From NCBI GenBank assembly GCA_016218365.1, contig JACREF010000008.1, forward strand, positions 1-64,000: DNA of 64,000 bases, given 5' to 3'. The translations under genes and the position numbers were made by a program. The notes below the pieces were generated by a model, which was not told the origin of the DNA, did no database searches, and saw nothing but the letters and a program-made list of their open reading frames with translations. Each line of letters opens with the position of its first letter. The first letter of the stretch is position 1. Below, one piece after another: positions 24,213-34,694 of this stretch. Origin of the DNA: Gammaproteobacteria bacterium (GTDB lineage Bacteria; Pseudomonadota; Gammaproteobacteria; SZUA-140).

Positions 24213-24400
24213 CGGGGCCCCTCTGCGGTGTTCGAGACTGGACAGTGTACTCTTGAGCCGTAATTTACTGCCTTGGGGGTTGAGTGCTGATATTTCTGTG
24301 CATGTCCGCTTGAACGGAAAGCCTTCGATATCACCGTTACTCCCACATGAACCATTGGTTCAGGGGCGTATGTCCACCCCGGCATTGCGGAGGCGGCCCC
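24213..24400 (+). ncRNA. ssrS: 6S RNA
   Basis: The 5' and 3' ends form a long closing stem: GGGGCC…CTCTGCGGTG pairs with CATTGCGGAG…GGCCCC. A central single-stranded bubble and the conserved 3' segment GAACCATTGGTTCAGGGGC match the gammaproteobacterial 6S consensus. Position between zapA and the 5-formyl-THF cyclo-ligase gene (ygfA) is the classic one. 6S RNA mimics an open promoter and holds sigma-70 RNA polymerase in stationary phase. Ends are estimated from the stem. Confidence 0.9.
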
Positions 24401-32535: not shown

Positions 32536-33615
32536 ATGCCTGGAACCGCCAAAGAAACCTATCTGGACCGATTCAAGAGGCTGGACCCGATCAGTACGCT
32601 AGGCCAGGACATGCTGGCCGAGATTGCCGGCCAGACCAGGATCGAACGCATTGACCCCGGTGTGGTGCTGTTTCGCGAAGGCGAGGACTCCCATCAGCTG
32701 CTTTATATACTTAGCGGCAGTGTTGAACTGTCGTCATCCGCCCAACAGCACACGCGCCTGATCAAGGGCGGCACCGCTGAGGCCACACAACCCGCCGACC
32801 AGCGCAACCCGCATCAGTATTGCGCGACCACCGTGACCCCGGCGGTCATCGCCCGGGTCGAACGTCATCTGGTGGAGGCCATGCTGACCTGGGGTCAGAT
32901 CAGCGTGCCGGAGACCGAGGTGATGATGAGTGAGGACGGCATCATCACCATCAACAAGGCCGACTGGCTGAAGATCATGATGAAATCCCCGACCTTCCGG
33001 CAACTGCCGGCCTCCAATATTGCAGAACTATTGCAGCGGCTTGAACCGGTCCGGGTCCGTGCCGGCGATGTCATCATCCGCCAGGGTGATATCGGCGATT
33101 ATTTCTACATGCTGAATGAAGGCACGGCACTGGTCACCCGCAACCCCGATGATGACGAGGATTCAGTCGAGATGGCTGAGTTACAGGAGGGTACGACCTT
33201 TGGTGAAGCGGCGCTGCTATCGGACAAACCCCGCGGCGCGACCGTGTCGATGACCTCCGATGGCATCCTGCTGCGGCTGGCCAAGGAGGATTTCAACCTG
33301 CTGCTGAAACAGCCGACACTGCATGAGCTGTCCTTCGACGAGGCATTGCACCAGATCAACGATCGCAGCCTGTGGATCGATGTCCGGCTGCCGGATGAAT
33401 ATCAGCGTGGCCACCTGCCACAGGCACGCAACATCCCGATGCGCGACCTGTATCGCCAGGCCCATGCGCTCGACCCGACCAGGACCTATCTGTGTTATTG
33501 CGACAACGGTCAGCGCAGCGCAGCCGCAACCTTTACGCTGACCCAATACGGCATCCAGGCCTATACGCTGAAGGGCGGGCTGAATCGGCTGCCCCCCGGC
33601 CAGCTCAGTCAGTGA
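32536..33615 (+). CDS. Two cNMP-binding domains plus rhodanese domain
   Basis: This is a 359-aa protein. The N-terminal cNMP-binding-like domain (about 25–85: [21 protein letters not shown]) appears incomplete. A second, fuller one follows (about 160–265: [38 protein letters not shown]). A rhodanese domain ends the protein ([20 protein letters not shown]), with active-site loop CDNGQRS. It is likely a cytoplasmic sulfur or redox sensor. It is divergent from the giant dehydrogenase, whose expression it may accompany; that link is only positional. Confidence 0.87.
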
Positions 33616-34046
33616 ACCAGCGCGGCAGACGCCGCCAGCAGCGCCGCATAACGCAGCCCCTTGCCGGCAAGGATAAACAGCAACGCCGGCAGCCACCGCA
33701 CCTGCAACCATCCTGCCGCCAGGCACAGCGGGTCACCGATCACCGGCAGCCATGACAGCAGCAACGTCACGCCGCCCCAGCGCGACACCCGCTGCAGCGC
33801 CTGTTGGTAACGCGGTGCCTGCAACCACTGCGGCTGGCCCCAACGCCGCGCCACCCAATGCCCAACCCACCAGGTACTGATCCCGCCCAGGGTATTGCCG
33901 GCAGTGGCCACCAGCCACAGCAACCAGACGGGATGCGTGGCATGAACCGCCATCCACACCAGCACTGCCTCAGACCCGCCGGGAAACAGCGTCGATGACA
34001 ACAGTGCACTGCCAAACAATCCCAGCAAACCGGCATTATCCGTCAT
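33609..34046 (-). CDS. YqaA-family (SNARE-associated/DedA-like) membrane protein
   Basis: This is a 145-aa protein with several membrane spans, typical of YqaA: LFGSALLSSTLFPGGSEAVLV and LVATAGNTLGGISTWWVGHW. The family is distant kin of DedA flippases. The ATG at 34046 is chosen; a strong hairpin with nine U lies just 13 nt upstream, so upstream reading to 34250 is unlikely to be translated. It overlaps the 3' end of the cNMP–rhodanese gene by 7 bp, tail to tail. Confidence 0.82.
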   Translation of the reverse strand: MTDNAGLLGLFGSALLSSTLFPGGSEAVLVWMAVHATHPVWLLWLVATAGNTLGGISTWWVGHWVARRWGQPQWLQAPRYQQALQRVSRWGGVTLLLSWLPVIGDPLCLAAGWLQVRWLPALLFILAGKGLRYAALLAASAALVH

Positions 34047-34058
34047 CGGATCACCATG

Positions 34059-34152
34059 AAAAAAAAAGCGGCCAGAGGCCGCCACGTACTGCAGATGCTC
34101 GTCATTATTATTGTTCAGTCCACCGCTGGCATGATCACTGACCCGCACCCAT
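34059..34152 (-). ncRNA. Candidate sRNA or attenuator leader upstream of yqaA
   Basis: A sigma-70 promoter (see next entry) would start a transcript near 34152. It ends about 94 nt later at a perfect rho-independent terminator: GCGGCC-AGA-GGCCGC as DNA (34068–34082), followed by U9. The body contains an AACAATAATAATG stretch. The yqaA ATG lies 13 nt past the U tract, so the unit may be a free sRNA, an attenuator of yqaA, or both. Confidence 0.5.
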
Positions 34153-34158
34153 GCTGGC

Positions 34159-34187
34159 AATCTAATGGACGGCAGGCAGGGCGTCAA
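34159..34187 (-). promoter_or_regulatory. Sigma-70 promoter upstream of yqaA
   Basis: TTGACG, 17 bp, TAGATT on the minus strand: five of six in the -35 box, optimal spacing. Confidence 0.65.
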
Positions 34188-34274
34188 GCCTGGAACAACG
34201 CTGGATTGTCTCACCGGAACCTTCCCTGATCGCTGCGCTGGGATTATCATGCCACGTCAAGCTAAGGAACTGTC

Positions 34275-34694
34275 ATGGCGTGGATAAAGGCGCTGCATAT
34301 CATCTTCATGGTGACCTGGTTCGCCGGTCTGTTCTATCTGCCACGGTTGTTCGTCTATCACGCGCTGTGCGCGGATGAACCGGGCCGCGAGCGCTTCAAG
34401 ATCATGGAGCGCAAGCTGTTCTTCGGCATCATGACGCCGGGTGCGGTACTGACTGCACTGTTCGGCCTGTGGCTGTTGCAGGACATGGCAGGGGTGGCCA
34501 CCGGCCACTGGTTGCAGCTGAAACTGCTGCTGGTTGCGGTGTTGGCCGCCTATCACATCTATTGCGGCAAACTGCTGCATGACTTCAAACACGACCGTAA
34601 TCGCCATGGCCATGTGTTCTACCGCTGGCTGAACGAGCTGCCGGTGCTGTTGCTGATGGCTATTGTCGTGCTGGTGGTCGTCAAACCCCTGTAA
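34275..34694 (+). CDS. hemJ: Protoporphyrinogen oxidase HemJ
   Basis: This is a 139-aa protein with four predicted membrane helices. It opens MAWIKALHIIFMVTWFAGLFYLPRLFVYH, with the conserved His residues, and has the HRNRHGHVFYRWLNELPVL C-terminal pattern. It oxidises protoporphyrinogen IX to protoporphyrin IX in heme synthesis, in place of HemG or HemY. Confidence 0.93.
   Translation: MAWIKALHIIFMVTWFAGLFYLPRLFVYHALCADEPGRERFKIMERKLFFGIMTPGAVLTALFGLWLLQDMAGVATGHWLQLKLLLVAVLAAYHIYCGKLLHDFKHDRNRHGHVFYRWLNELPVLLLMAIVVLVVVKPL

Follow-up and report, generated by a model that had tools for sequence, protein, structure and literature searches.

A conserved promoter–terminator unit between hemJ and yqaA is probably a gene for an Hfq-dependent small RNA of the class II type

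Introduction

The locus described here raises the question of whether a terminator lying immediately upstream of a gene controls that gene or ends an independent RNA. In the attenuators of the his and trp operons, a promoter, a short leader, and a terminator precede the gene, and the same order is seen ahead of a yqaA-like gene in the window, the 64,000-nt stretch that was analyzed (positions 1 to 64,000 of contig JACREF010000008.1, from a gammaproteobacterium of the SZUA-140 lineage). A sequence-only reading of the window had proposed that this unit makes either a small RNA or a leader attenuator, with readthrough perhaps controlled by an alternative hairpin or by a short Asn-rich reading frame.

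Among Hfq-binding small RNAs, ChiX has the same layout as MgrR, composed of a central ARN stretch, a pairing region, and a U-tailed terminator within ~80–100 nt. ChiX and MgrR live longer when the rim of Hfq is mutated, and both are encoded at genomic places other than that of the window unit. PMC6239178 gives MgrR as a 98-nt RNA with a central, accessible ARN stretch, describes the class II layout as a U tail plus a central ARN stretch, and includes ChiX, CyaR, and McaS in this class.

Results

Anatomy and gene setting

The TTGACG–17–TAGATT promoter, the GC-rich hairpin, and the T9 tract ending 13 nt before the yqaA ATG, as described in the sequence-only reading, are confirmed on the minus strand and located at the coordinates given in Table 1. 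The transcript is predicted to start at ~34152. The yqaA frame is open further upstream (33609–34250 on the minus strand, 213 codons), crossing the terminator and the A-rich stretch; this long frame is probably due to chance, because no ATG or GTG start backed by a Shine–Dalgarno site was found to read the A-rich stretch there.

Table 1. Positions in the window of the predicted RNA, its promoter and terminator, and the flanking genes
Feature	Coordinates	Strand	Basis
−35 element, TTGACG	34187–34182	−	Consensus scan
−10 element, TAGATT, 17-nt spacer from −35	34164–34159	−	Consensus scan
Predicted small RNA, ~94 nt	34059–34152	−	Promoter and terminator positions; match of hold-out model R3 (34160–34059)
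5′ part of the RNA	34116–34152	−	Hairpin covaries in another lineage; weakly predicted in the window
AACAATAATAAT, A-rich ARN-type stretch, putative Hfq distal-face site	34104–34115	−	AAYAAYAA in relatives
Variable spacer, candidate base-pairing region	34084–34103	−	Not conserved between families
Terminator hairpin, GGCGGCC-TCT-GGCCGCT, 7 pairs	Stem 34083–34077, loop TCT, 34073–34067	−	Scan
T9 tract, U tail	34059–34067	−	Sequence
yqaA-like VTT-domain gene, next downstream	33609–34046	−	PF09335; relatives; ATG at 34046
hemJ, divergent neighbor, conserved landmark	34275–34694	+	TIGR00701, 140.9 bits (cut-off 138.05); UPF0093
cNMP-binding/rhodanese (CRP-rhodanese) gene, convergent with yqaA	32536–33615	+	Domain search

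Promoter-like sites number 5 in 6.5 kb by consensus scan, against 1.3 (sd 1.1) in shuffled sequence, and terminator-like sites number 6, against 3.5 (sd 2.2). Such sites are common in the scan, so that alone they are weak evidence. The predicted RNA is no more stable than its shuffles (z = −0.66), which counts against the small RNA reading. Judged from sequence, conservation is what raises the unit above chance.

At gathering scores, Rfam 15 recognizes in the window only 6S RNA, at 24217–24397 on the plus strand (80.5 bits), and leaves the site unmatched. A scan of 16 related loci returned only three sub-threshold matches up to E 1. STnc50 (RF02059) at L092 scores 30.3 bits against a gathering score of 55, and CsrC (RF00084) at L085 scores 21.8 bits against 61; both are taken as chance matches because they lie far under gathering, occur at one locus each, and run antisense to the unit.

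Copies in the family of the window

No full-length match to the unit was found as plain DNA in 54 relatives, which contain short pieces only. Several of these pieces are the terminator of the unit, lying before yqaA or beside hemJ, and they led to the family of copies. Pieces in G002, G007, G013, G014, G016, G017, G032, G033, G040, and G052 are, by eye, ordinary terminators or unrelated; in G040 and G052, covariance model R2 (see below) finds the unit at another place in the genome.

The copies share a layout comprising a TTGAC promoter, a G-rich or structured 5′ part, an A-rich AAYAAY stretch, a GCGGC/GCCGC terminator, and T8–9. The TTGAC of the −35 element is kept in relatives, in part because the search pattern contained it, and −10-like sequences (TTAGATT, TTAATCT, and the like) are seen by eye at about the same distance. 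Eight of the 20 family genomes carry the unit next to hemJ or yqaA. It is upstream of yqaA in G000, G005, G009, G010, and G012, and beside hemJ, without yqaA and with the CRP-rhodanese gene convergent, in G004 and G008. The copy in G003 (L216), which was added by hold-out model R3, lies beside hemJ with a convergent CRP-rhodanese gene and has no clear AAYAAYAA; it belongs to the family count and stands outside the 90 members described below. The other 12 of the 20 family genomes yielded no accepted copy. G007 has a weak R2 match (E 0.059). A GGAGGG-type run is present in the 5′ part of the copies in G005, G009, G010, and G012 (L004, L052, L003, and L055) and absent from that of the window.

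Conservation of the gene neighborhood across the class

A pattern of the form TTGAC-N-AAYAAYAA-N-GCTTTTTT matches 28 of 369 genomes of the class, and its reversed control matches 12 of 369. The GCGGC/GCCGC terminator is present in 13 of the 28 pattern genomes (14 matches); nine of these matches are upstream of argC, three are beside hemJ/yqaA, one precedes DUF6776-bactofilin, and one lies elsewhere. Because TTGAC and AAYAAYAA are both in the pattern, their conservation is partly by construction, a limit from which synteny and covariation are exempt. Covariance model R2 was built from 19 sequences (alignment A3) with the promoter included, and the GCGGC/GCCGC terminator core is present in 19 of 19. 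R2 matches at least 41 of the 369 class genomes at ≥37.8 bits, a lower bound because the filters were strict and few candidates were scored per genome.

All 28 non-training loci at ≥37.8 bits sit in one gene neighborhood. One flank holds hemJ, a thioredoxin-like gene (TlpA), DUF4126, and a ClC channel gene, and the opposite flank holds argC, DUF6776, bactofilin, erpA, or yqaA; the yqaA/CRP-rhodanese arrangement is a further form of it. Neighbors were named by Pfam on example proteins, with argC and hemJ identified separately, and the neighbor queries were drawn from a few of the loci, which match themselves. L112, L118, and L119 were first linked by the ClC gene alone, and wider stretches show hemJ adjoining it. 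Of the weaker R2 matches (30.8–36.6 bits), 8 of 13 lie in the neighborhood; those outside it are L142, G261, G361, G278, and G048.

A tighter version of the pattern, run on genome contigs from 84,980 species, yielded 63 stretches. R2 scores of ≥37 bits are reached by 45 of the 63, whose titles are all gammaproteobacterial or "Proteobacteria"; the strong named matches include Legionellales, Thiotrichaceae, Chromatiales, Lysobacterales/Xanthomonadales, the culturable Methylohalomonas lacus (L148, unit at 1843–1970), and others. Eight stretches from other phyla score ≤26.5 bits, and 10, two of them gammaproteobacterial, have no R2 match at E ≤ 0.01. The aligned matches (A4 and A5) amount to 109 sequences, 99 of them distinct, from which nine were dropped to leave 90 members: L142, which matched only in part, and L160, L168, L176, L186, L187, L192, L196, and L198, which carry other-phylum titles and score ≤26.5 bits. 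After additional queries with erpA, DUF6776, bactofilin, CysQ-like, and NudC for the open loci, 89 of the 90 distinct members are found in the neighborhood. The sole exception, L103 (G112:C150:3823-3934), is a second, diverged copy in a genome that also has an argC-linked copy. In 398 genomes of the phylum at E ≤ 1e-6, the window alone matched, so that the RNA is patchy, which points to an absence of the unit from well-sampled families; of the 397 other genomes, the 20 listed are all of the same class, so that this search is silent on other classes.

Two loci have hemL-like neighbors. At L116, the RNA is flanked by a hemL-like aminotransferase class-III gene and by DUF6776-bactofilin-erpA, and L219 has a HemL-like match on the hemJ side; these neighbors connect the unit once more with tetrapyrrole synthesis. 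Members next to ClC or argC (L098, L105, L110, L113, L115, L122, L123, L130, L132, L136, L138, L139, L144, and L166) share, by eye, an AT-rich element (approximately TATTCTAATATACTGAAA or ATATTCTTATAAAGTAATAT) up to ~45 nt upstream of the −35 element, which may be an operator.

RNA structure and covariation

Twenty members of the Legionellales/Thiotrichaceae type fold into a 5′ hairpin, an open A-rich stretch, and the terminator. In these relatives, 6 of the 10 pairs of the 5′ helix show two-sided changes, and the terminator helix shows hardly any variation. The two helices together contain 18 two-sided cells, compared with 6.0 expected from shuffling (reached by 0 of 500), 93.8% paired cells, compared with 88.5% expected (0 of 500), and 16 further pair types, compared with 11.9 (2 of 500), under a shuffle control that related sequences can exceed without structure and in a subgroup (alignment A6) picked after its members were seen, with L152 folded and left out. 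Slid controls are far lower than the true alignment. RNAalifold on seven sequences of the window's family returned the terminator and did not find the 5′ helix, and the 5′ hairpin of the window itself is weakly predicted.

Match of a hold-out model

R3 is an RNA-only model of 41 members that contains neither the promoter nor any sequence of the window's family. It matches the minus strand of the window at 39.3 bits (E 6.7e-5 against the window alone), and no other site of the 2.26-Mb genome is matched at E ≤ 5, with 150 of the 424 first-look candidates scored. This match and the neighborhood kept by relatives are the conservation that raises the unit above chance. The genome-wide E is only 0.0024, which is counted against the small RNA reading. 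R3 tests the sequence and not the discovery, because the window had contributed to the patterns and to the model by which the members of R3 were collected. The family copies in G004 and G008 escaped R3 at E ≤ 0.05; R2, trained on both, scores them at 84–87 bits.

The A-rich stretch, the spacer, and hfq

AAYAAYAA is present in 72 of the 90 members, partly by construction; 35 have a single copy, 37 have two or more (overlapping copies counted), and 18 have none. The A columns of the stretch are invariant in alignments A1–A3. In the window, 9 of the 12 bases of AACAATAATAAT have a predicted unpaired probability of >0.5. The genome encodes hfq (PF17209, 105.4 bits, over the cut-off). Class II features found here are a U-tailed intrinsic terminator, a largely unpaired ARN-type stretch, and hfq in the host.

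The idea of a short Asn-rich reading frame over AACAATAATAAT finds no support. An ATG or GTG with a Shine–Dalgarno-like site in the Asn frame occurs in 0 of the 72 members with AAYAAYAA; a start codon of any kind, TTG included, is found in this frame in 15 of 72, and an ATG or GTG reading over the stretch in any frame in 17 of 72. An ARN-type Hfq motif is the better reading of the stretch.

The spacer that follows the ARN stretch varies between families and is kept within some, as might be expected of a lineage-specific pairing region. CACCACC, a candidate seed, occurs in the spacer of nine ClC/argC-linked loci (L098, L105, L110, L113, L115, L122, L138, L139, and L144), and GAATTC occurs in that of the Legionellales type.

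Discussion

The unit at 34187–34059 on the minus strand is probably a stand-alone gene for an Hfq-dependent, trans-acting small RNA of the ChiX/MgrR (class II) type. This assignment follows from the U tail and the central ARN stretch, which constitute the class II layout, and from the presence of hfq. We infer that the RNA is transcribed, binds Hfq, and acts in trans on targets. A sigma-70-type promoter would drive synthesis of a 94-nt RNA comprising a structured 5′ part, the ARN-type stretch, a short variable spacer, and the GC-rich terminator with U9. The U tail would sit on the proximal face of Hfq and the AAYAAYAAY stretch on the distal face, leaving the 5′ loop or the spacer to base-pair in trans with mRNAs. 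As described in PMC6239178, MgrR of Escherichia coli is similar in its ~80–100-nt length, central ARN-rich stretch, pairing region, and terminator with a U tail. In contrast to this similarity to ChiX and MgrR in layout, the window site has no sequence match to any Rfam 15 family up to E 5.

The view that the unit is a leader whose attenuating terminator governs the gene that follows (yqaA in the window and argC in many of the relatives) through signal-controlled readthrough is disfavored and unlikely to be correct, as is its milder form, in which a free small RNA is accompanied by slight readthrough that gives yqaA mRNA. The start of yqaA 13 nt after the T tract would suit an attenuator, as would the placement of argC as the next gene downstream in 50 of the 90 members. 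However, the next gene differs by lineage (argC, yqaA, DUF6776, or the convergent CRP-rhodanese gene) while the RNA stays; yqaA is in this position in 10 of 90 members (L173 included), and the 16 of 90 without an assignment are neutral on the matter. In G003, G004, and G008, the downstream CRP-rhodanese gene is convergent, so that there is nothing to attenuate there. The distance to argC ranges nearly twentyfold, from ~44 to 834 nt, and the argC of the window's own genome lies on another contig, 37 nt behind another open reading frame, without the unit. An alternative hairpin is seen in G005 and G010, where the minimum-energy fold of the whole RNA pairs the 5′ part with an arm of the terminator, in favor of attenuation, but it is not seen in the window, for which it had been proposed. 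No Rfam riboswitch or leader was found at the site or at the related loci, and, unlike the his and trp attenuators, the unit has no conserved leader reading frame and no conserved downstream gene. Of the two original proposals, the small RNA is supported by conservation and neighborhood, and the attenuator is disfavored because the downstream gene varies or is convergent. Readthrough across the 13 nt into yqaA in the window is possible and may be one way in which yqaA is expressed.

It is also quite unlikely that the RNA acts as a decoy whose AAYAAYAA motifs capture Hfq, alone or together with Crc, in the manner of CrcZ and without base-paired targets. The likeness of AAYAAYAA to the CA motif of Hfq/Crc targets speaks for such a role, as do the 37 members with repeated copies and the several A-rich blocks in L123, L130, and L132. 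CrcZ, CrcY, and CrcX of Pseudomonas are several hundred nucleotides long, however, and contain many motifs, and the many AAnAAnAA motifs on a long RNA that mark this type were not found: AAYAAYAA occurs at most once in 53 of the 90 members, and the RNA is ~94 nt. The likeness to these RNAs lies in the motifs, and neither the window unit nor the related loci match them in Rfam. The short length and the 5′ hairpin conserved in one group fit a pairing small RNA better. A chance juxtaposition of promoter-like and terminator-like sequences is highly improbable. The frequency of consensus sites, the ordinary fold z-score, and the matches of the reversed pattern are what chance would predict; the R3 match at the window site, the synteny of 89 of 90 members, and the covariation of the 5′ helix argue against it.

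The predicted small RNA of the window would represent a new family of a known kind, absent from Rfam 15 and undescribed as far as searched; no description of it was found in the literature, a search that lay mostly outside subscription papers. To our knowledge, few Hfq-dependent small RNA families are traceable through a large number of families within one class, and the known ones are mostly from Enterobacteria, Vibrio, and Pseudomonas. A bolder proposal, which we consider doubtful, is that this is an old gammaproteobacterial Hfq small RNA tied, over much of the history of the class, to a cluster of genes for heme (hemJ, once hemL-like), arginine (argC), and Fe-S (erpA), which might balance the use of glutamate and iron between these pathways by pairing with mRNAs. 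The locus illustrates that a gene is not necessarily attenuated by a terminator lying immediately before its start. The unit keeps the same chromosomal neighborhood across many little-studied gammaproteobacteria and looks like a real small RNA gene. Because it combines a promoter, a terminator, and a stable neighborhood, the family is open to detection and testing in numerous lineages in parallel, and it would add an entry to Rfam.
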